A stretch of 56,729 nucleotides of DNA from Deltaproteobacteria bacterium (GCA_018266075.1 JAFEBB010000051.1:1-56729); one strand, 5' to 3'; positions 1,659 to 14,562 are shown, counted from the first letter of the stretch. The notes: a model not told the origin generated them from the letters alone. Made by a program: numbers and translations.

Positions 1659-2813
1659 TCAGGGCTTCAGCAGTGAGCCCGGTGCAACCGCCGAGATGAC
1701 GTAGTCGTCCTTCGGCGTCCGCTCCCGTGGCCGCAGCCCCTCGATCACCAGCTCGTTGGCCTCGTGCATCTGGAAGACCAACTTATTCAGGTCGGTCAGC
1801 GACAGGTGGTTTGACTCCAGCATCTGTGGCCACAACAACCGGTACACGATCTTGCCCTTGGTTTTCACCATCGTGATGACCTGGTCCTTCACGCGGTCGA
1901 GGCTGTCCTGGTGCAGTCCTTCATACCGATTGTCGAGGGCGGGCGCGGTGCCGAACATGTCTAGCTGCTGATCTCCCCGATGCTGTGCCTCGTCTCGGAT
2001 TGAGCTGGCCTCCTCCCCAACCACTTTGCGCTCCACGTTCCGGAAGAGCTGGAGCGGCTCCGTGTGATGGCACCCGAGGACCAGTCGGAACCACGTGCGG
2101 TTGTGCGTGGGGTGCGGGATCGCCAGGTCGGCCGCGTACTCCAGCGAGCACGTCGTCTTGAGCCGAGACCGGTACTGGCTCATCAACGCGTCCTCCCCCG
2201 CCGAGGAGGGCGCCTCGTCGTCGGTGAGGCCGAAGAACTCGCGCATCTGCCGCACGAGAAATGACCGCTCGTCGTTCTTGAAGCGGTTGATGTGGTTGAA
2301 CATCACGTTGATCAAGACGTCCCGCTTCTCCACCCTGGCCAACGGGGCGATGTACTTCATCGCCGCGCCAGTCCAGCCGGTGGGGTCCACGAACAAGAAT
2401 GCGGCGTCCGTGCCGATCATGGTGTTGATCTTGTCGACGTACGTCCCGAACTCCCCCGGAAACGCGTGCGTCACCACTGCGCCCGAGCGCTGCTTCAAGA
2501 ACGCTTCGAGCAACTTGAACGAGGCGGGCTTCTTCTCCACGAAGATCGCACTGACGTCGACCTTGTGGCCCTTCCCATTCCAGGTCGCGGAGGCCGCCTC
2601 CAGCGCCTGGAGGCCGATGCAGACGGACGTGTCGTCCAGCTCGTCACCCTCCTGCTGCCAGGGGCCCGCGAAACAGTCGACGTACCAGAGGCGGACACGG
2701 CCGAACCTGCTTCGGGAGCCGAGCTTGTGACCCCACGCGAGGAGGTACTCGTTTAGTACCCGGTGCTTCAGGTAGGTCTGTTCCCGGTTGTGGTACTTCG
2801 GCGGTACCGGCAT
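1659..2813 (-). CDS. tcmP: Three-Cys-motif partner protein TcmP
   Basis: This 384-residue protein matches the TcmP family, named because its gene nearly always sits beside a gene for a three-Cys-motif (Gp37/Gp68, DUF5131) protein, as it does here. Recognisable features are the N-terminal KYHNREQTYLKHRVLNEYL segment, LWYVDCFAGPW (about 44-54) and LFVDPTGW (about 144-151). The last two resemble the nucleotide-binding strands of a Rossmann methyltransferase-like fold, but that is my inference. The start chosen, at MPVPPKYHN, follows a strong GGGGGGA ribosome binding site; the longer open frame upstream overlaps the divergent gene and reads like antisense. The two partners are transcribed away from each other from a 93 bp spacer. 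The biochemical role is unknown; the family is common in phage, plasmid and defence contexts. Confidence 0.88.
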   Translation of the reverse strand: MPVPPKYHNREQTYLKHRVLNEYLLAWGHKLGSRSRFGRVRLWYVDCFAGPWQQEGDELDDTSVCIGLQALEAASATWNGKGHKVDVSAIFVEKKPASFKLLEAFLKQRSGAVVTHAFPGEFGTYVDKINTMIGTDAAFLFVDPTGWTGAAMKYIAPLARVEKRDVLINVMFNHINRFKNDERSFLVRQMREFFGLTDDEAPSSAGEDALMSQYRSRLKTTCSLEYAADLAIPHPTHNRTWFRLVLGCHHTEPLQLFRNVERKVVGEEASSIRDEAQHRGDQQLDMFGTAPALDNRYEGLHQDSLDRVKDQVITMVKTKGKIVYRLLWPQMLESNHLSLTDLNKLVFQMHEANELVIEGLRPRERTPKDDYVISAVAPGSLLKP

Positions 2814-2906
2814 GCAGGTCCCCCCAGGAGTCCCAGGATAACCGAGTGCCCCGCCCTGTCGGGCGCGAATGCTATGTCTACGGACTGCTCCACGGAGCTG
2901 GCGGCC
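2814..2906. promoter_or_regulatory. Divergent promoter spacer between tcmP and the DUF5131 gene
   Basis: These 93 bp lie between two start codons pointing away from each other, so promoters for both partners must lie here or inside the opposite gene. The end nearest tcmP carries its C-rich ribosome binding site complement; the other end carries GGAG for the DUF5131 gene. I see no clear -35/-10 pair or palindrome. Confidence 0.4.
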
Positions 2907-3629
2907 ATGAGCGATCACAGCAACATCGAATGGACGGACGCCACCTGGAACCCGGTGCGGGGTTGCCGGAAGGTCTCGCCGGGCTGCAAGCACTGCTACG
3001 CGGAGACGTTCGCGGAGCGTTTCAGGGGAGTGTCCGGGCATCCGTTCGAGCACGGCTTCGACCTCCGGCTCGTGCCCGAGGCGCTGGAGCTGCCGCTGAA
3101 GTGGAAGAGGGCCAGGCTCATCTTCGTGAACAGCATGTCCGACCTCTTCCTGGAGGACGTGCCGGTCGACTACATCAAGAAGGTCTTCTCGGTTATGCAC
3201 CGAGCGTCCCACCACCAGTTCCAGGTCCTGACCAAGAGGGCGGACAGGTTGGCGGAGCTGGCGCCCCAGCTCACCTTCACGCCGAACATCTGGATGGGGG
3301 TCAGCGTCGAGAATGCGAAGTACACCTGGCGAATCGACGAGCTGCGGCGGGTGCCGTCCCAGGTCCGGTTCTTGAGCATCGAGCCGCTGCTCGGGCCGCT
3401 GGAGAACCTAAACCTCAAGCACATGCACTGGGTGATCGTCGGCGGCGAGAGCGGCCACCACGCCCGGCCGATGGACCCAGAATGGGTCCGCTCAATTCGA
3501 CAGCAGTGCCGACGCGCGCGCGTGCCCTTCTTCTTCAAGCAGTGGGGGGGCGTCCAGAAAAGCCGTGCCGGGAGGCTTCTCGACGGCCGTACGTGGGATG
3601 AGATGCCCAAGCTGATGGCGGCCAGCTGA
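2907..3629 (+). CDS. Three-Cys-motif protein, Gp37/Gp68 (DUF5131) family
   Basis: The 240-residue product has the family hallmark near its N terminus: NIEWTDATWNP at 6-16, then Cys20, Cys27 and Cys30 in the spacing C-x6-C-x2-C, followed by YAE. Other conserved blocks are IFVNSMSDLF, FQVLTKRADRL, WMGVSVEN, FLSIEPLLGPL, WVIVGGESG and PFFFKQWGG, all in the usual order. Length is typical. The three cysteines suggest metal or iron-sulfur binding in a radical-SAM-like barrel, which is inference. The ATG before SDHSNIEW is preferred over one 33 bases upstream because GGAG sits about nine bases before it. Together with the divergent tcmP it forms the standard TcmP / three-Cys pair. Confidence 0.9.
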   Translation: MSDHSNIEWTDATWNPVRGCRKVSPGCKHCYAETFAERFRGVSGHPFEHGFDLRLVPEALELPLKWKRARLIFVNSMSDLFLEDVPVDYIKKVFSVMHRASHHQFQVLTKRADRLAELAPQLTFTPNIWMGVSVENAKYTWRIDELRRVPSQVRFLSIEPLLGPLENLNLKHMHWVIVGGESGHHARPMDPEWVRSIRQQCRRARVPFFFKQWGGVQKSRAGRLLDGRTWDEMPKLMAAS

Positions 3630-3738: not shown

Positions 3739-4914
3739 ATGGCGAAGTTCATCGTGGAGTCCCCGTACGTCCGCAGGTTGCCAGACCCTGTCTTCGGGCC
3801 CAACGCGCAGCGGACGATCTTCATGGTGCCGGTGCATGCGGTACCCACCGGCATCCCGCGCGACCCCAACCCCCGCGCCCCGGACATCAACAAGTCGGTG
3901 TGGAAGGACATCAGGCGCCACCTCCTCAACGAGGAGGGCGAGCCCAACACCTTCCACCTCAAGAACAAGGGCATCACCATCTTGGCGTCCGAGGTGGAGA
4001 AGCTCTCGGAGGAGAAGTACGCGCTGCACTTCGAGCCTGGCGACGGAATCGTGGACGGCGGGCACACGTACGAACTCCTCACTGACGCCGCGGATGACAT
4101 CGCGCGCCTCGGCGCGTCGGACGTGCCCCTGAAGCAGTTCGTGAAAATCGAAGTGCTGACCGGCTTGCCCGCGAACCTGGTCACGGAGATTGCGGGAGGC
4201 TTGAACACCGCCATCCAGGTGCAGTCCTACTCGCTCGAAAACCTGCGTGGCAGCTTCGACTGGCTCAGGGCTGCCCTCGACACCAAGTCGTACGGAAAGC
4301 ACGTCGCGTTCAGAGAGAACGACGACGGCCTGATCGACGTCCGCGATGTCCTGGTCCTGCTCGACCTCTTCAACATTGCCGAGTTCCCCAACGCCAGCTC
4401 CGAGTACCCCCTTCGCGCGTACGGCTCCAAGCAGAACGTGCTCGAAAGCTACGTGGCGCACCCCGAGCACTACAAGGCGCTGGAGCCGCTGCTCCACGAC
4501 ATCCTTTCGCTCCACGATCTGATCGGCAGCGAGGCGCGTAGCAAGCACAACGAGACGGGCGGCAAGGCCGGAAGCTTGGCCTTCGTCGAGGACAAGAAGA
4601 AGGGCACCTTCGACTTCCCGTTCTTGGGTAGGAAGAGTGAGTACCGCCTGAGCCGGGCAGCCCTCTTGCCGATGCTCGGCGCATTCAGGTGGATGGTGAA
4701 GTCGAATCCCACCTCGGGGAAGCTCGAGTGGGACGGCGGCTACTCGATGGTGCTCAAGGTCTGGGAGGCGGCGGGCGGCGAGTTGATGCGCGCCACGCAG
4801 GTGACCAGCGCAGAGAACAACCGGCTGGTTCATGCCATCGGCCGCGCCAGGAACCACTGGCAATCGCTCCACAACATCGTCGCGAAGCACCACCTCATGA
4901 TGACCAGGCGGTAG
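3739..4914 (+). CDS. AIPR (abortive infection phage resistance) family protein
   Basis: The 391-residue protein shows the two signatures of AIPR-type proteins: NKGITILA at residues 76-83, and an IVDGGHTYELL block at 104-114, equivalent to the family's 'NGxQT' or 'DGGHR' motif. AIPR proteins were named from a lactococcal abortive-infection system, but their activity is not settled. After the motifs comes a helical region with QVQSYSLENLRGSFDWL, which fits the family. The start is backed by AAGGAG seven bases upstream. It lies 109 bp after the DUF5131 gene and about 100 bp before the AlbA_2-like gene on the same strand, so the four plus-strand genes may form one transcript. No frameshift or truncation was seen. 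Confidence 0.8.
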   Translation: MAKFIVESPYVRRLPDPVFGPNAQRTIFMVPVHAVPTGIPRDPNPRAPDINKSVWKDIRRHLLNEEGEPNTFHLKNKGITILASEVEKLSEEKYALHFEPGDGIVDGGHTYELLTDAADDIARLGASDVPLKQFVKIEVLTGLPANLVTEIAGGLNTAIQVQSYSLENLRGSFDWLRAALDTKSYGKHVAFRENDDGLIDVRDVLVLLDLFNIAEFPNASSEYPLRAYGSKQNVLESYVAHPEHYKALEPLLHDILSLHDLIGSEARSKHNETGGKAGSLAFVEDKKKGTFDFPFLGRKSEYRLSRAALLPMLGAFRWMVKSNPTSGKLEWDGGYSMVLKVWEAAGGELMRATQVTSAENNRLVHAIGRARNHWQSLHNIVAKHHLMMTRR

Positions 4915-5013
4915 CTGTTGATGTTGTGCCCTGCCGCCCCTGCAGCCATTGGGGGGCGGCAAGGTGCTCCCCGTGCGATGTGTCTCTGAGGACCGCCGTG
5001 GATGGAGGAGACG

Positions 5014-5882
5014 ATGTTCAACCAGATCAACAACGTTGATGCGCTCCCGAAGGCGGGCGGCAACTACGAGAGCATCGCTCTCGACTTCAAGACCAAGTAC
5101 AAAAGGAACGGCCCTCCACCCGGAAACTTCGACCAGTTCGAGATGGCGAAGGACGTCGCGATGTTCGCGAACGCGAACGGAGGGGTGATCCTCGTTGGTG
5201 CGAGAGAGAGCCCGGTATCAGGCGTACTGGACGGGTACGAACCGTTGACACCAGAGGATGCCAAACACCACGCCGATGCCTTCAACGACGCGATCGCGGA
5301 TAGGTGCCACCCGAAGCCGCTCGTCGACCTGGCTGTCTTGGACGCACCGAGCGGCGTCAACCGCGTCGTCGCCGTGAACGTGTGGCCCTTCCCGGGACAG
5401 GTCGTTGGTGTTGGCGTCGCGGCAGCCGCGCTGACGGCTATGGCGACCGGGCCTTCGTCTTCCCTCTTCGCGTTGGGCGCAACTGCACGTTCATCAGACC
5501 GGACCAACTTCCCATGCTCATGCTCCCCGATGTTCGGCGCACTGCGATCCTTCTCGACCAGGTTCTCGGCAGCGGGCGGAACAAGAAGATCCAGGTGTGG
5601 CTCGGTGCCACTCCCGAAGGACTCGATCTGGAGCGCGTTGATGCCATGAAGAACGTCGCCATCTTTCGAGGTGCAGATGGACCACTGCCCGGCGTTCCCG
5701 GCAGCGGCAGCCTCGGTACGTTGTCCGTACAGGTCCCATTCGAGGCGGTCCGCGCGATCTGGCAGTTGTCGTCCGGCGAGTGGGAAATCCTGCTGTCTGG
5801 CACGATCGAGAGGAGTGGTGGGGCCCTCCGGTACATGCCCCTTGGCGGGAAGTTCCCGTTGGTGAAGAGCACCCTCCGATGA
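5014..5882 (+). pseudogene. AlbA_2/Schlafen-type putative ATP-binding protein, frameshifted
   Basis: The N-terminal part looks like the AlbA_2 (divergent AAA-4, Schlafen) domain: YESIALDFKTKY, then EMAKDVAMFANANGGVIL, then VSGVLDGYEPL. This frame continues to about VNVWPFPGQVVGV and then degenerates into Ala/Ser-rich sequence. In the frame two bases along, the protein resumes from about 5437 as DGYGDRAFVFPLRVGRN and runs sensibly to the stop at 5880-5882. The switch must occur between about 5405 and 5440. No slippery heptamer is visible, so a one-base loss or a sequence error is likelier than programmed frameshifting. The start at 5014 is preferred because GGAGGAG lies just before it. The end overlaps the next start codon as ATGA, which indicates the intact ancestor was translated through the second frame and coupled to the nuclease-like gene. 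Confidence 0.7.
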
Positions 5883-6844
5883 GCACCGTGGCCTTCTTCG
5901 CGTCGGGCGATGCCGATCCGTCCTACGAGAACATCCGCGACTCGGACCTGTTCACGGACGTGAAGGCGCGCATCGAGGAGCTGTGGCCACGTTTCGCGGC
6001 GGTGTGCGGTGACCCTCAGGCCAAGTTCCTGAGCGAAGCCAGAACGACCTTCAACGCCCGTGTGTGGGAGATGTACTTGGCCTGCGTCTTGATGGACCAC
6101 GGCCTGCAGCTCACCAAGCCGCCCTCCAACGGCCCCGACGTGCTCGCCGACACAGCGGGCGGGAGGCGCCTCTGGGTCGAGGCGGTCGCTCCCGGCACGG
6201 GGAAGGGCGACAACAAGGTCCAGCGCATCGTGGGCCAGGTCGGGAAGTCGCGCGGCGGCGGGACGTGGCAGCAGTACAATCTCGACCACGACAAGCACAT
6301 GCTGCGGTATCTGAAGGCCTTGGAGGACAAGCTCGGCCAGCTCCGCGAGCGTCTCGCAGCCGGCGTCGTACAGCCGGATGACTGCTACGTGGTCGCGATC
6401 AGCGGCGCCAACCTCCCGGACGCGGACCTGAACCAGGAGGTCCCCTACATCGTCAAGGCGCTCCTGGGCATCGGGGACGCCGTGATGACCGTCCCGATCG
6501 GGAGCGAAGGCGTTGATGTTGATGTTTCCCATCCGCCCCGATCTGCGATCAAGCAGTCGGAGAGGCGCGAGGTGGTCGCGGGCCCTTTCTGGACCGACGA
6601 GTACAAGCTCATCTCGGGGGTGCTCTTCTCGCCGTACGACATCGCGAACACGCCGGCCCACATGGGTGATGATGACCTTCTGTTCGTCCACAACCCCATG
6701 GCGACTTCGCCGCTGCCGCACGGGACGATGACGTTCGGCAGGGAGGTGTGGTCGGAGGCGGGCTCCGAGCACTACGTGCTGGTCGGGAATAACTTCCGGA
6801 CCGTCAAGGGCAAGAGGCCCAACTTCTTCCGCGCAGCGGGGTGA
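5879..6844 (+). CDS. Putative PD-(D/E)XK-like nuclease of a defence cluster
   Basis: The 321-residue product is not in a family I can name. Residues around 60-105 fit a restriction-endonuclease-like core: RVWEMYLACVLMDHG, then GPDVLADTAGGRRLWVEAVA. The Glu in the first helix, the Asp of GPDV and the Glu of WVEAV are spaced like an E...D...ExK site, but the last position reads E-A-V rather than E-x-K, so catalysis is uncertain. Later segments, DDCYVVAISGANLPD and YKLISGVLFSPYDIANTP, look like a conserved C-terminal half. The start overlaps the stop of the AlbA_2-like gene by four bases (ATGA), which implies translational coupling and probably joint function. It is the last plus-strand gene of the cluster and faces a convergent gene after 96 bp. 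Confidence 0.6.
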   Translation: MSTVAFFASGDADPSYENIRDSDLFTDVKARIEELWPRFAAVCGDPQAKFLSEARTTFNARVWEMYLACVLMDHGLQLTKPPSNGPDVLADTAGGRRLWVEAVAPGTGKGDNKVQRIVGQVGKSRGGGTWQQYNLDHDKHMLRYLKALEDKLGQLRERLAAGVVQPDDCYVVAISGANLPDADLNQEVPYIVKALLGIGDAVMTVPIGSEGVDVDVSHPPRSAIKQSERREVVAGPFWTDEYKLISGVLFSPYDIANTPAHMGDDDLLFVHNPMATSPLPHGTMTFGREVWSEAGSEHYVLVGNNFRTVKGKRPNFFRAAG

Positions 6845-7753: not shown

Positions 7754-10700
7754 TCAGCTCCCGGCCTTCTCGCTGCCCGAGGCCGAAGGCTCCTCGGCCG
7801 GCGCGAGGGCCGCTTCGATGCGGCGGACCACATCGTCTGGCGCCTGCCGCCACTCGCTGGCGAGCACAACCTCCACACTCCAGCCGAAGGTACGGAGAAG
7901 CGCCGGCCGGACGCGGTGGCGTTCGTCGGCATCTCCAGTGGAGTAGTGGGCGTCGGTGTCGAGGAGCACGGCCAGCCGGTGGTTGGCGTCGTCGTGGCGG
8001 CGCACGGCGAGCTCGCAGCGGAATCGCGACCCGCCCACGCCGCGCTCCACCTTCCAGCCGCGGGCCTCAAGGGCCTCGGCCAGCGAAGCAGTCGCGGCAT
8101 CCATGGTGTTGGCGGCGTGCTCGGCCTCGCGCGCGGTTGAAACGCCGCGCAGCGCGGCGCGGGCGTCGGCATCGTCGCCGCGGGAGAGCGCGGCGGCGTA
8201 GCGCAGGTAGCCGCGGAGCGTGCTCGCGCCTGTGTTGTAGTCGTTGGTGATGTGCGCGTCGTCGATGGAGCTCACCACGGCCAGGTGGTGGCGGGCGCGC
8301 GAAAAGATCACGTTGAGGCGCTTCTCGCCGCCGCGCTTGTTGATGGGGCCAAAGTTCATGCGCATCTGGCCGTTGGCGTCGGGGCCGTAGCAGATGCTGA
8401 GGATGATGATGTCGCGCTCGTCGCCCTGGACAGTCTCCAGATTCTTCACGAAAAGCCCGCAGAACTGATCGTCCTCGGTGCGCTCGTACTCGGCCTCGAG
8501 CCGGGCGCGGAACTCGGCATCCCGCTCGGCCACGCGCCCCAGCGCGGCCTCGATCTCGCCCTGCTGGGCCTCGGAGAAGGCCACGATGCCGACGCTCTGC
8601 TTGGTCTCCGCGAAGAGCCCGCGAAGGAGCTCCGCGATGTACTCGGCCTCCATGCGGTTGGTGCGGCTGTCGTAGGTGGCACCGTCGAGCCGGTGGTGGC
8701 TCACCGAGCGCTCGAGGAGGAGCCGCGCGCCGTTGAAGCCCGCGGCCGCGCTCGCGGCGCGAATGGGTGCACGCGACACGCTCCGGCCCGGGGTGGGCAC
8801 GGTGGCGAGCTTGCCCTCGTAGAAGGCTTGGTTGGAGAACTGGATGAGGGCTTCGTCGCGGCTGCGATAGTGCCAGCCGAGCATCGTCGACGGCAGGGTG
8901 CGGGCGGCGTGGGCGAGCAAGCTGTCGGCGTCGAGCTCGTAGGAGATAGCCTGGCCGCCCTCGTGGAAGGTGACCGCGGTGCCGTCCTCGTCGGGCGCGG
9001 CGCCGAAGAAGTTGGTGGGCGGGAGCTGCATCTCGTCGCCCACGACGATGCACTGCTCCGCGCGGTGGATGGCGGGGATGGCGTCTTCCAGGGGGATCTG
9101 GCTGGCCTCGTCGAAGATGACCACGTCGAAGTACTCGCTCGCGAGCGGCAAGGTGTCGGCCACGCTCAGCGGGCTCATCAGCCACACTGGCTTCAGATCG
9201 CGGATCACCAATCCCGTCGGGCCGGTCATGAGCTCGCGGATGGCCTTGAAGCGCATCACCTTGCCCATCTCGTGCTCGAGGTCGCGGCGGCCGGCGGAGT
9301 AGTCGCGCTTGAAGGCCTTGTGGTCTGCGCTCTGCCCCGCCGCCGACTGCGCCGCCCGCTGCACCCGCTCCAGGAACGCCAGCCGCGCGCGTTCCACCAC
9401 GTGCGCGGCGTTGGCCTTGCGCAGCCGGGAGTGGGCGGCGTCGAGCTGCTCCTGCAAGAGGCCCACCGCGCGGCCGGTGAGCGCGGCGGTCGTGGGCTGG
9501 GCATGCATGGAGGACACGATGGCCCGCTCGCACACCGCCCACTCCAGGCTCTCCGGCCGGAGCGGAAGCTCGCGCAGGGCATCGGCCACCCGGGGCGCGC
9601 CCACACGCAGCGCTCCCAGCACCCGACACAGCTCGGGCAGGCTCGCAGCCTTCTGGCTCAACGTCGTGAGCTCGCGTTGCAGTTCGGCGAGGGTGAGCCG
9701 CTGATGGCCGTCGAAGAGCGCGCCCAGCTCGCCGCTGAGCCGCTCCACCTCGGGCGCGTAGGCGGCGAGCGTCTCTGCCCAGGGGCCGGCATCGGGAGCG
9801 ACCAACTCGGCCTTGAGGGCGCGTTCCGCGCTCGTCCAACTTCCCCGCGCGTCGAGCTCGGCGACCAGCGTCTGCGCGCCGTCGAGATCCGCCAGGCCGA
9901 GGGCCTGCGAGCCCTCGCGCCGCGCCAGCTCCAGCGCGTCCTCGGCCTGGTAGCGGGCGTCGAGCAGCTGCAGCGCGGAGAGGTATGGCGGCGGCACCAG
10001 CGAGGCGCGGAAGTCGAAGCGCTCGCGCAGGATGCTCCGCAGCCGCCAGAAGCTGGGGAAAAAGAATCGCAGGAGCTTCTCGTGCCAGCGCTGCGCGAGC
10101 GCGGTCACCGCCGCGAGATCCGCGCGGGAGATGGGCGTGCGCCAGGCCGCGGCGGCCTTCAGCGCGCCAGCCACCAGCTCTGACTTGGTGGCGATGGTCG
10201 CCAGGGTCTGCTTGAAGCGCCGATAGAGCTCGCTGCTCGAGTCCAGGAGCGCGAGGGCGCCAGCCTTGGCCAGCGGCTGGACGCGCGCCGCCAGCCGCGT
10301 TCGCTCTACCGCCGCGGCGAGCACGAGCGCGGTCCCGTCTCGGCCGACCGCGTTCGGCGTCCGCGACAGCTGCTCCAGCGCAGGCACCAACTGCTCGAGA
10401 GCGGTGGTCACCAGCTCGATGGGCCGCTCCGCGCGCAGCACGTCGTCGCGCAGCAAGCGCGCAGGATGGCGCGCGAGCACGGGCTCTTCGCCGAGCGCCA
10501 CGAGCAGCTTCGAGAGGCGGGCCACCTCGTCGCGGTGCGGGAGCAGCTCGCGGTGCAGCGGCAGCCGCTCGGTCTGCGCGGGCGCGAGCTCCACCTTCGC
10601 GTTGCCGAGCTCGATGGACCGCCGCACCACCTTCACCAGCGGCTCGGTGCTGCCCTCGGCGGGCGCGGTCATCCACTGGTCGAGCCGGGTGAGCTCGCCC

Positions 10701-12937
10701 AGCGGCGTGGCCACTTCTGCGAGCCGCACCTCGCGATCTGCGGGCGGCGGCGGCTGGTCCGCCGAGCCCATCCACGCGTCGTACGACTGCTTGAGCGCGC
10801 CCACGAAGCTCTTCTTGTCGCCCTGCGAGTCGTGGATGACGGTGGTGAGCCGATCGAGGCCGAGCTGGCGCAGCCGGTAGAAGACGACATCCAGCGCCGC
10901 GCGCTTCTCGCACACGAACAGCACGCGCTTGCCGCGGGCCACCTGGTCCGCGATGAGGTTGGTGATGGTCTGCGACTTCCCCGTGCCCGGCGGCCCTTGA
11001 ATGATGAAGCTCGCGCCAGCGCGCGCGCGAGCCACCGCGGCCTGCTGGGTGCCGTCGGCGGCGACGACCGTGAACTGCTCGGCGAGCGGCGCCGGCGACA
11101 GCGGCTGCAGCGCGGGCCGGGCGTCGGCCGAGAAGAGCTGATCGAAGGGCTTGTTCGGCCGCTCCTCCGCGAGGAGTGCGTCGTAGTCCCGCACCAGCGA
11201 CATCTTCTGGTAGTCGAAGTTACCCAGCGTGACGGTCGTGAGATCGAAGCCCCAGCGGTACGGGCCACCTTCGTCGCCGGCCTTGCGCAGCGAGAAGAGC
11301 TCCTTCTCGAGCACCCGCTCCGATTGCGAAGCGGCCATCTGGGTCACGCGCGGGCGCGGCTTCTCGAACATCGCGGCCGCGGGCGCCTCCGACGGCGAGA
11401 CGCAGAGCGCGAACAGCCGCAGCCCCAGCGGCTGGAAGTTGTCACGGCGGTAGCTGTACTCGAGCCCGTCGCGCGAGCGCACCCCGCGGCCCGAGAGCTG
11501 CCGGCGCTTGCGGAAGGCGTCGAGGCGGCGCAACACGCGCGCGTGCACCAGATCGATGGCCGGCTGGTCGATGCGCTCCAGCACGACCGCCGGCTCCGAC
11601 GCCTGGATCTGCTCGGTGAGCACCGCGAAGAGCCGCTCCAAGCTGCCCGGCTCGGCGAGGTTCACCGCGTCCGGGAGCCGAATGCCGTACGTCTGCGCCA
11701 GCACGTGGCGCAGCACCGGGTTCACCTCGGCGAGCTCGGAGGTGGCGGTGAGCAGGTAGGCGTCGCGGACGCCCTTCTTGCGCGTGAGTTCCACCGGCAC
11801 CAGCAACAGCGGCGAGTGCACGCGCTCCTCGGGCGCGTTCTTGAGGTCGTGCCAGTGCAGAAAGCAGATGGCCAGCTTGAGCGAGGAGAAGCCGTACTCC
11901 GTCTTGGCGCGCGCGGCCGAAGTGCGCAGCTTGTCGAGGGCAGGCGCGGCGAAGGGATAGTCCTCGAAGCGCAGCCACTTCCCCAGCGAGAGCGGCTCGT
12001 GGTGGGCCAGCGCCTCCACCAGCGGCGGCCGACAGGTGAGCAGCGCGTCGGCGGAGACGTTGCGAATGTCGAGCACCAGCGGCACCGAGAGCTCGGTGAG
12101 GTCCAGCGACTGTGCGGTGGGCTTGAAGTAGAGGAGCCGGTTGCGCCGGGTGAGGTCAAAGAGCTGGCTGCGCAGGCGCTCGCAGATCACCCCGCGGCGG
12201 CTCTGCTGGGTCTTGGCCACTAGCCCGCGGATCTCCTCGAGGTCGAGCTCGGGGCGCAGCTCGTGCTCGCGGTGGCGCTCCAACGCGGCGAGCAGGCTGC
12301 GCAGATCCGGCGGGCGCTTGGACCGATCGAGATCGGTCATCTGCTCGATGGCGCGCGCCACCATGGGGTGGATGCGCGGGTTGCGGCGCCGCACGTCGCG
12401 GCGGGCGTCAACGAATGTGCGCAAGTGATCGGCGTCGCCGAGGTTCTCGTCGAGGGCAAGGCTCGCGAGGATGAGTCCGAGCACGTAGATGTCGGTGAGC
12501 GGATCCTGGTGCTCGAGCTCGTGCTCCCAGCACACGTAGCCGGGCAGGTACACAGGCCGCGTCAGCGGCGCGCCGCGCTCGCCCACCGCGAGGTCCTCGC
12601 GCTTGAGGCCATCGTCGGTCTCTTCGGTGCGCAGCCGCGAGCGGACTCGGAGCGCGCCCGAAGGCCCGTCCGTCAGCGCGGCCAGCTTCTGCGTCGCCTT
12701 GCGCGGCGGCCCGCAGCGCGCGTTCTCGAACCAGAGCCGGCCGCCGAGAGAGAGCACGTCGGCCGCGCCCACCAGCGGCGCCACCAGGCCGCGATCGTGG
12801 ACCTCGAGCACCTGGCGCAAGAGCGGGAGCGCCGCCCCGAGGACATCGTCGGTGCTTCGCTCGTGCTCGCTGCCGCCCAGGAGCTCGGTGAAGGGCACGG
12901 GCGCTTCGGACTGCGGACTCGCTGCGGGCGCGGTCAA
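7754..12937 (-). CDS. DUF4011 superfamily 1 helicase with kinase-like N terminus and Vsr-like C terminus (Hhe type)
   Basis: This 1727-residue protein has three parts. Residues about 130-220 resemble the C-lobe of a protein kinase (DPLTDIYVLGLILASL, later RSKRPPDLRSLLAALE) without the N-lobe catalytic residues, so a pseudokinase is likely. The DUF4011 signature RLRSQLFDLTRRNRLLYF lies at about 254-271. A superfamily 1 helicase follows: Walker A GPPGTGKSQT near 647, DEASQIPLEDA near 1272, GDEMQLPP near 1297, WHYRSRDEA near 1353, VQGDERD near 1500 and NVIFSRARHH near 1540. The last 90 residues (LDTDAHYS, ALLRTFGWSVEVV, SEWR) fit the Vsr/MTES_1575-like nuclease domain. DUF4011-helicase-Vsr proteins are a known antiphage type, Hhe, though the DUF3320 part is not obvious here. 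Its ATG overlaps the stop of the protease gene upstream (ATGA), so the two are translationally coupled. Confidence 0.85.
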   Translation of the reverse strand: MTAPAASPQSEAPVPFTELLGGSEHERSTDDVLGAALPLLRQVLEVHDRGLVAPLVGAADVLSLGGRLWFENARCGPPRKATQKLAALTDGPSGALRVRSRLRTEETDDGLKREDLAVGERGAPLTRPVYLPGYVCWEHELEHQDPLTDIYVLGLILASLALDENLGDADHLRTFVDARRDVRRRNPRIHPMVARAIEQMTDLDRSKRPPDLRSLLAALERHREHELRPELDLEEIRGLVAKTQQSRRGVICERLRSQLFDLTRRNRLLYFKPTAQSLDLTELSVPLVLDIRNVSADALLTCRPPLVEALAHHEPLSLGKWLRFEDYPFAAPALDKLRTSAARAKTEYGFSSLKLAICFLHWHDLKNAPEERVHSPLLLVPVELTRKKGVRDAYLLTATSELAEVNPVLRHVLAQTYGIRLPDAVNLAEPGSLERLFAVLTEQIQASEPAVVLERIDQPAIDLVHARVLRRLDAFRKRRQLSGRGVRSRDGLEYSYRRDNFQPLGLRLFALCVSPSEAPAAAMFEKPRPRVTQMAASQSERVLEKELFSLRKAGDEGGPYRWGFDLTTVTLGNFDYQKMSLVRDYDALLAEERPNKPFDQLFSADARPALQPLSPAPLAEQFTVVAADGTQQAAVARARAGASFIIQGPPGTGKSQTITNLIADQVARGKRVLFVCEKRAALDVVFYRLRQLGLDRLTTVIHDSQGDKKSFVGALKQSYDAWMGSADQPPPPADREVRLAEVATPLGELTRLDQWMTAPAEGSTEPLVKVVRRSIELGNAKVELAPAQTERLPLHRELLPHRDEVARLSKLLVALGEEPVLARHPARLLRDDVLRAERPIELVTTALEQLVPALEQLSRTPNAVGRDGTALVLAAAVERTRLAARVQPLAKAGALALLDSSSELYRRFKQTLATIATKSELVAGALKAAAAWRTPISRADLAAVTALAQRWHEKLLRFFFPSFWRLRSILRERFDFRASLVPPPYLSALQLLDARYQAEDALELARREGSQALGLADLDGAQTLVAELDARGSWTSAERALKAELVAPDAGPWAETLAAYAPEVERLSGELGALFDGHQRLTLAELQRELTTLSQKAASLPELCRVLGALRVGAPRVADALRELPLRPESLEWAVCERAIVSSMHAQPTTAALTGRAVGLLQEQLDAAHSRLRKANAAHVVERARLAFLERVQRAAQSAAGQSADHKAFKRDYSAGRRDLEHEMGKVMRFKAIRELMTGPTGLVIRDLKPVWLMSPLSVADTLPLASEYFDVVIFDEASQIPLEDAIPAIHRAEQCIVVGDEMQLPPTNFFGAAPDEDGTAVTFHEGGQAISYELDADSLLAHAARTLPSTMLGWHYRSRDEALIQFSNQAFYEGKLATVPTPGRSVSRAPIRAASAAAGFNGARLLLERSVSHHRLDGATYDSRTNRMEAEYIAELLRGLFAETKQSVGIVAFSEAQQGEIEAALGRVAERDAEFRARLEAEYERTEDDQFCGLFVKNLETVQGDERDIIILSICYGPDANGQMRMNFGPINKRGGEKRLNVIFSRARHHLAVVSSIDDAHITNDYNTGASTLRGYLRYAAALSRGDDADARAALRGVSTAREAEHAANTMDAATASLAEALEARGWKVERGVGGSRFRCELAVRRHDDANHRLAVLLDTDAHYSTGDADERHRVRPALLRTFGWSVEVVLASEWRQAPDDVVRRIEAALAPAEEPSASGSEKAGS

Positions 12938-14127
12938 GGCGTGTCTCCCTGCTGCGCGGCGCGCTCGAGCAAGGCGGGGAAGCCCTTGCGCAGCTCCTCG
13001 AAGGCCGTCTTTCTCAGCTTCAGCTCGTCACGCGCGACCTTCTCGAAGCTCTCCGTGAGCGCGAGCGCGTCGGCGGTGGTCCAGGCGTGGGCGAGCGCCA
13101 CGTCGCCGAGCACCTCGTCCACCAGCGCGAAGTCGAGGAGCACGTACGCGAAGTACTCGCCCACCGAAGCGTCCGCGGTCCCCTCCGGCCACGCCGGCTG
13201 CGCCTGCTCCACCGGCTCCAGCCTGGGAAAGAACGCGCGCGCGTGGGCCATCACCGGCTCGGTGCGGAACCAGCTGGGCGCCACGATCCGCGCGATGAGC
13301 GCGCGGGTCTGCTCGGTGAGCGCGAGCTGGTCCAGCACGTCGAGGGCGTCGAAGGTGGTGGGCCCCTGGACCATCTTCGCGATCGTCGGCTCGGCGTCGG
13401 CGCCCAGGGCGTGCCAGAGCGAGATGGCGCGCGCGCGAACGAACGTCTCCGGATGCGACGTCCCTTGCGAGCTGAGCGACTTCTTTGCGAACAGCTCCTC
13501 CGCCTGGCGCACGTAGGCCGCGGGATCCACCTCGGACAGGCCGGTGTGCACCTTGACCAAGCAGCTCACCACCGCGAGCGGATCGCCGCAGGCGAGCAGC
13601 GAGCCGCGGTCGGCGAAGATCTCCGTGTAGCGGCGGGCGCGCACGGCGGTGCTCACGAAGCTCGGCTCGGCGCCATGGTGCGAGGCGATGCTCTCGATGA
13701 GCTCGCTGGCCACGCGCAACGAACCTTCGTCCAAGCGCCAGAGCACGGCGTGCGCGAGCTCGTGGCCCACCAGCGCGGTGAGCTCGAGGTCCGTAAGCGT
13801 CGAGAGGATCGGCCCGCTGAGGACCACGTGCGCCTCCCCGGGGATGAAGCAGAGCCCGGCGTTCATGCCCACGCCTTCGTGTGCCTGGTAGAACGTCACC
13901 GGCAGGTTCAGCCCCAACGCCTCCTGCGCGCGCTGGGCCGCGGCATAGAGCCCCGGGTGCGCGGCGGGCTCCATGCGATAGCTCGACTGCAACAAGCTCA
14001 AGCGGACAGCGTCGGCCTGCTCCGCGGCGAACCCGTCGGACGCGAACCATTGCCAGCGGCCGCTCTCGCGCTCTCGCAGATGGTTTCGAAGGCGAATCAA
14101 GTACTGCGGAGGCTCAAGCACGGGCAT
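12934..14127 (-). CDS. M48-like zinc metalloprotease, coupled to the DUF4011 helicase
   Basis: The 397-residue protein has a zinc-binding HELAH motif at 122-126 (ALVGHELAHAVLW) and a likely third ligand, Glu169, in TEIFADRGSLLA, the arrangement seen in M48 peptidases. No membrane segment or signal peptide is obvious, unlike HtpX, so it should be cytoplasmic. The region after 185 is helical with an EEL..K...S.HPETFVRARA segment, also usual for M48 proteins where HPET-like residues follow the core. It is the first gene of a two-gene operon: its stop overlaps the helicase start by four bases. A protease so tightly linked to a defence helicase suggests that it activates, cleaves or senses something for the helicase, by analogy with protease-linked immune systems. 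That role is inference. Confidence 0.82.
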   Translation of the reverse strand: MPVLEPPQYLIRLRNHLRERESGRWQWFASDGFAAEQADAVRLSLLQSSYRMEPAAHPGLYAAAQRAQEALGLNLPVTFYQAHEGVGMNAGLCFIPGEAHVVLSGPILSTLTDLELTALVGHELAHAVLWRLDEGSLRVASELIESIASHHGAEPSFVSTAVRARRYTEIFADRGSLLACGDPLAVVSCLVKVHTGLSEVDPAAYVRQAEELFAKKSLSSQGTSHPETFVRARAISLWHALGADAEPTIAKMVQGPTTFDALDVLDQLALTEQTRALIARIVAPSWFRTEPVMAHARAFFPRLEPVEQAQPAWPEGTADASVGEYFAYVLLDFALVDEVLGDVALAHAWTTADALALTESFEKVARDELKLRKTAFEELRKGFPALLERAAQQGDTP

Positions 14128-14277: not shown

Positions 14278-14562
14278 TCAGCACAGATGCGATCTGTGCA
14301 GGTGACGCGCCATGGCCGCGGCAAGGCCACAGCGCGCCTGGTCGTCCTCGTCGAGCTGGGCGGCCTCGAGTTCTGCGTGGAGCGCCACGCAAGTCGCGCA
14401 GCCCTCGTGCAAGCCGTGCAAGTCGATCTGCCGAAAACGGGCTTCGACCGGCCCATCGCCCTGCCCCGCTCGTTGCCAACCCCGCGAGACTTCTCGATCC
14501 GCCTCCCCGCCAACAGGCACCGACTGGAGCCGCTCGGCGTGTTCGATTCCTTCCGCGCTCAT
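14278..14562 (-). CDS. Small hypothetical protein with CxxC motif
   Basis: A 94-residue reading frame starts with MSAEGIEHAERLQSVPVGG. It contains a HEGCATCVALHAEL segment, whose C-x2-C flanked by histidines could bind zinc, and ends HLHRSHLC. Composition is balanced rather than Arg/Pro-rich, which favours a real gene over a shadow, but I know no family. The start lies only five bases from a perfect ten-pair hairpin that covers any ribosome binding site. A six-codon mini-frame begins within that hairpin and ends overlapping this ATG. If real, translation may depend on opening the hairpin or on coupling to the mini-frame. Confidence 0.4.
   Translation of the reverse strand: MSAEGIEHAERLQSVPVGGEADREVSRGWQRAGQGDGPVEARFRQIDLHGLHEGCATCVALHAELEAAQLDEDDQARCGLAAAMARHLHRSHLC

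Follow-up and report, generated by a model that had tools for sequence, protein, structure and literature searches.

A gene for an M48-type zinc peptidase and a gene for a large DUF4011 helicase form a coupled pair in a Deltaproteobacteria bacterium (GCA_018266075.1), and we regard it as nearly certain that such pairs represent an obligate, mobile two-gene system. The whole stretch of DNA that was analysed, 56,729 nt of the contig JAFEBB010000051.1, is referred to here as the window. Judged from its sequence, the pair is probably an undescribed relative of anti-virus helicases in which a protease has become the weapon. Our preferred reading, which holds about half of our confidence, is that a nucleic-acid-sensing helicase controls an M48 protease effector, most likely acting against phages or plasmids.

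Results

Both genes are located on the minus strand of the window, with the protease gene (12934-14127; 397 aa, P0002) upstream of a gene for a pseudokinase-DUF4011-SF1 helicase-Vsr-like protein (7754-12937; 1727 aa, P0001). An earlier note on this DNA had described an M48-like protease and a 1727-residue helicase, and both open reading frames were confirmed where it had placed them. Opposite-strand reading frames over the pair, such as 8252-10183 on the plus strand, were rejected as high-GC shadow frames. The protease stop codon TGA and the helicase start codon TTG share the 4-nt overlap TTGA (12934-12937, minus strand; junction CTTGACC). The translational coupling claimed for the pair was upheld, but the overlap had been given as ATGA, which is the form of most relatives and not the one found here. 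An overlap of this length was common to 18 of the 21 intact pairs, and in every intact pair the protease gene was directly upstream of the helicase gene, overlapping it or a few bases apart. A mirror-tree comparison of the protease and helicase distance matrices from these 21 pairs gave r=0.975, a value reached by 0 of 2000 permutations, and dN/dS values of 0.10-0.29 for both genes indicated similar purifying selection.

The pair was the only copy found in the 7.84-Mb assembly of the window genome. A scan of one genome per species with a single protease sequence gave no matches, and the scan that succeeded used a three-sequence alignment (A2), again against one genome per species. This protease-only scan detected 11 homologues in Myxococcota, Verrucomicrobiota, Planctomycetota and Pseudomonadota, with loci from Verrucomicrobia, Phycisphaeraceae, Anaeromyxobacter (two), Massilia, Luteolibacter, Xanthomonas and Pseudomonas. 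All 11 had the helicase immediately 3', 41-45% identical over its length, and the Pseudomonas copy of the pair was frameshifted. Within the Massilia family the protease was present in 13 of 294 genomes, adjoined by the helicase wherever the contig allowed, and the reverse search of the 294 genomes with the N-terminus of the helicase returned the same 13 at E<1e-50; seven further matches were weak and DUF4011-only. The earlier note would have been undermined if no second genome showed an M48 gene upstream of a DUF4011 helicase, and this objection falls away because at least 25 genomes in four phyla carry the pair. No protease homologues were found on plasmids, phages or IMG/VR viral contigs. 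The idea that the two genes are chance neighbours or an annotation artefact is refuted by the two-way co-occurrence, the conserved overlap, the purifying selection and the fusions described below, and we give it virtually no credence.

Several copies of the pair were incomplete or rearranged. One genome (G495) had a second, partial protease copy (L124:217-735, E 3.8e-60) upstream of an intact pair, which suggests recombination or duplication at the locus. Broken copies were seen at L072, L127 and in G328 (L132/L134), in the form of a frameshifted protease and helicase, a degraded helicase and a protease divided over two contigs, and frameshifts had broken the copies in L072 and G441. Such broken or interrupted copies are as expected for a costly accessory system.

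Two other genomes of the same taxonomic order encoded these functions as a single chain, M48-TerB-DUF4011-helicase-MTES_1575, in single open reading frames of 2088 and 1970 aa (L040:13196-19459 and L041:10981-16890). The fusion in L040 had an additional C-terminal stretch of ~85 aa that resembled the end of BREX-6 PglZ (33 bits). The fused helicases branched apart from the main split clade in the helicase tree, on long branches, so the functions may have been joined independently a second time in the fusions. The split protease has a conserved all-helical C-terminal domain (12937-13365, minus strand) whose position matches that of TerB in the fused proteins. This C-terminus had no Pfam match in the split form, whereas the fused G020 form reached 29.6 bits against TerB, above the cut-off, and a profile comparison of the split C-terminus with the fused TerB was only 10% probable.

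The protease scored 27.7 bits against the Pfam M48 profile (PF01435; cut-off 20.3), and the Anaeromyxobacter oryzae protease scored 33.9 bits. An alignment of 21 pairs showed that the HEXXH motif and a downstream glutamate ligand were present: H122, E123 and H126 of the HELAH zinc-binding motif (residues 122-126; 13750-13764, minus strand) and the third zinc ligand, E169 of ExxxDR (13621-13623, minus strand), were invariant in 21/21, as was His225-Pro226. An AlphaFold (AF2) model built with 13 relatives had a pLDDT of 89.8 and an M48 gluzincin fold, and its best VIA alignments were to the Zn-peptidase 3c37 (Z 9.4), BepA (9.3) and ZMPSTE24 (8.7). The protein is thus predicted, from family, zinc site and fold, to be an M48-type zinc peptidase. 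A search of the protease for a transmembrane segment found no hydrophobic stretch long enough to span a membrane, which suggests that it is soluble and probably cytoplasmic. No PADLOC model matched the protease, and in NCBIfam only HtpX models did, far below their cut-offs.

The domains of the helicase protein were all above their Pfam cut-offs: DUF4011 (PF13195; residues 259-413, 11699-12163), the AAA_11/AAA_12 parts (PF13086/PF13087) of an SF1 helicase of the UPF1/Smubp-2 type, split by a long insert (8258-11080), and a C-terminal MTES_1575/Vsr-like PD-(D/E)XK domain (PF18741; 7805-8086), all on the minus strand. The closest solved structures to the helicase were Smubp-2, SEN1 and UPF1, and K654 of Walker A and the DE of Walker B were invariant in 21/21 helicases. 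Residues 12-234 (12236-12904, minus strand) were modelled as a protein-kinase C-lobe with a VIA Z of about 15. The N-lobe with its lysine, the HRD of the catalytic loop and the DFG were all absent from this region, as seen in the alignment and in the truncated fold, so the name pseudokinase, used in the earlier note, is justified. WGR, a domain found in PARP1 and DNA proteins, ended 18 of the 21 paired helicases (14 by a strict pattern and four by eye) and was absent from the window copy.

The active-site block of the Vsr-like domain appears from the alignment to be eroded. Most protease-less DUF4011 helicases retained the block vEcDG..YHS..RDRDRLR. In 21/21 paired helicases the conserved glutamate of this block was a leucine, the G and H were not retained, and the loop after the glutamate position was deleted or scrambled in several, with a deletion in Luteolibacter and in one Verrucomicrobium. 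The earlier note had assumed that a protease was added to a working helicase-nuclease, and this assumption fits poorly with a nuclease block that looks eroded in all members. The same erosion points to the protease as the effector. The reverse arrangement would be a Hhe-like helicase-nuclease in which the Vsr-like domain cleaves DNA as the effector step and the protease is only a regulator, through zymogen-like processing or release, or through destruction when the nuclease is unneeded. Such an arrangement gains from the homology of the helicase to Hhe and ProA over the helicase and the C-terminal domain, from the retention of that domain in every member, and from two acidic residues of the nuclease core, the first (Asp in 20/21) and a later Asp (21/21). 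Moreover, the E. coli Vsr enzyme is active without that glutamate, and some protease-less helicases (L074, L075 and L101-L103) have lost it too, so residual nuclease activity is possible. The loss of the glutamate, G, H and loop argues against it, as does the window copy, the only one in which the first acidic residue is Glu, and no member lacks the protease or has a degenerate protease site. We therefore consider a nuclease effector rather improbable and retain the protease as the likelier effector.

Among DUF4011 helicase-nucleases, which form a large anti-phage class, the earlier note had filed the helicase with Hhe. This was rejected, as the helicase scored 437 bits against the equivalog cut-off of 2000 bits (Hhe_antiphage, NF042953; PADLOC PDLC02194) and the helicases of the pairs formed one separate clade with 100/100 support. 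Membership in ProA was rejected as well (antiphage_ProA equivalog, NF058533; 677 bits, cut-off 1500). Like Hhe, the paired helicase has DUF4011, then a split SF1 helicase and, at the C-terminus, an MTES_1575 domain; unlike the single-gene Hhe, it always has a protease partner, a pseudokinase N-terminus and the eroded block with Leu for Glu in 21/21. The top-scoring known models, ProA and the PADLOC candidate PDC-S37, are anti-phage or candidate anti-phage, but their best stretch covered only helicase residues ~568-1724 and they matched no protease component. PDC-S37 was the nearest PADLOC profile (668 bits, residues 561-1721), with no curated cut-off given. The claim that a protease is not part of the described Hhe system agreed with our searches: no description of an M48-DUF4011 pair was found in the papers searched, and none in the PADLOC and NCBIfam profile libraries.

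Two groups of helicases outside the pairs were noted. A Hhe-like helicase of A. oryzae (L042:8330-15126) retained VECDG, had no protease and fell in a clade separate from the paired helicases; the gene downstream of it overlaps by 4 nt and its product starts with a DnaJ-like domain. A DUF4011 helicase of ~1490 aa (L101-L103 and L156-L158) was present in many of the Myxococcaceae-like genomes searched, where it is near-core, with the nuclease glutamate changed to Leu, CDG kept and no adjoining protease seen. A linked protease was rejected for L101-L103, as inspection by eye found no protease gene adjoining.

The pair moves. In the Xanthomonas relatives G513 and G526 the flanks of the pair were contiguous, with 292 and 112 bp between them, and 7.4 kb lay between the same flanks in L071, showing that next to nothing besides the pair was inserted. 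The site was rejected as a defence hotspot, as in G506 it holds an apparent MarR regulator and an apparent FAD oxidoreductase. The flanks also differed between nearly all Burkholderiaceae pairs. In the window, 21 nt (14541-14561, plus strand) exactly repeat the 3' end of tRNA-Lys(CTT), with a terminator-like hairpin behind them; they are a probable attR, 414 bp upstream of the protease gene. The full tRNA-Lys(CTT), in direct orientation with respect to these 21 nt, lay close to the beginning of contig C2 and beside a tyrosine integrase (L150, G000:C2:2777-4162), and the left arm of the window had a G+C content of 63-66% versus 70-71%. Further cargo genes in this arm were AIPR (3739-4914), SLFN_AlbA_2 (5002-5649) and a PD-T7-5-like gene (5780-6844), in a row on the plus strand and possibly a further defence operon (3739-6844). 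To their left were a TcmP-like gene with a weak PDC-M30A match (1662-2870, minus strand) and, divergent from it, a DUF5131/phage Gp37-Gp68-like gene identified by eye (about 2907-3629, plus strand). By these features the pair is probably the last cargo of a defence-carrying genomic island at tRNA-Lys, split over contig C2 and the window contig; its extent would be at least ~18 kb, with the joining of the contigs probable.

Elsewhere, most pairs lay among ordinary chromosomal genes and not in defence islands. PADLOC found few defence-type proteins among 131 neighbours; among the matches listed, these were essentially one R-M locus and the PD-T7-5-like gene of the window. Defence-type neighbours were thus present for the window pair and absent for most other pairs. 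This usual location would suit a role in genome maintenance, in which the helicase frees nucleic acid of proteins bound or crosslinked to it and the protease degrades them, by analogy with the DNA-protein crosslink repair of SprT, SPRTN and Wss1, to the benefit of the cell but with no antiviral function. The WGR domain at the end of 18/21 helicases would suit DNA repair too, and the protease had a weak SprT-like match (E 7e-4, below cut-off), with a DPC-repair protease ranked low among its Foldseek matches. However, the helicase relatives with a name are annotated as antiviral, and the patchy presence of the pair (13/294 and 2/35 genomes), its transfer across phyla, its insertion as a cassette and its frameshifts mark it as accessory and not as core maintenance. 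A maintenance role is unlikely in our assessment, and we return to the sensor-protease reading. The usual location of the pairs outside defence islands, and a WGR that would also suit repair, hold our confidence in that mechanism at about one half.

Discussion

The invariant protease and ATPase sites, the dead kinase and the eroded nuclease are most simply read as a system with proteolysis as its output. In the mechanism that we propose, the large protein would be the sensor, composed of a UPF1-like SF1 motor, DUF4011, a pseudokinase scaffold and a catalytically weakened Vsr-like domain, in most cases with a WGR at the C-terminus. It would bind foreign or aberrant nucleic acid and move along it, and an ATP-driven rearrangement would activate the co-translated M48 protease, which we propose is stably bound to it. 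The activated protease would then cut a phage or host protein, and infection would be stopped. A stronger version, in which the kinase and the Vsr-like nuclease are both dead, the SF1 helicase does nothing other than sense nucleic acid and fire the bound M48 protease, and the system is a widespread form of immunity, is one that we offer only tentatively.

An antiviral role is favoured by the homology of the helicase to the anti-phage Hhe and ProA and to the candidate PDC-S37. The same sensor-protease logic could instead serve competition with plasmids or other mobile elements, or a stress response, with phage not being the target. The pair moves as an isolated cassette, here on an integrated island, and elsewhere showed no biased association with phage-defence genes, as might be expected for such a role, but the homologues of named function are anti-phage, and we think this alternative very improbable. 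Defence against phage or plasmid under control of the helicase remains our preferred reading.

Mokosh (MkoA/MkoC) joins kinase or helicase and nuclease modules in one defence system. The paired helicase had a weak, partial match to MkoA (126 bits), and Mokosh has a PLD nuclease and no M48 protease (PMC10952713). The coupling of a nucleic-acid sensor that switches on a protease would resemble the caspase-like protease of type III-E CRISPR and the CHAT-protease system Borvo, with another protease fold and another sensor, and CHAT proteases are a precedent for immunity by a protease effector (PMC10952713). M48-annotated zinc peptidases occur in at least one functional anti-phage island, the RRDM island of EPEC, where the peptidase is linked to type I R-M and DarTG and there is no DUF4011 helicase (PMC12255303).

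A two-gene system is simple to test and would open a way to identify the protein that is cut to halt infection. M48 gluzincins, whose known roles lie mainly in the quality control of membrane and envelope, would be added by the pair to the immune proteases. A lineage with an eroded nuclease and a strictly retained M48 protease would separate sensing from killing and would be a natural effector-swapping experiment. If the reading is true, proteolysis has taken the place of the nuclease as effector in the Hhe lineage, and M48 proteases would be a previously unrecognised class of immune effector.
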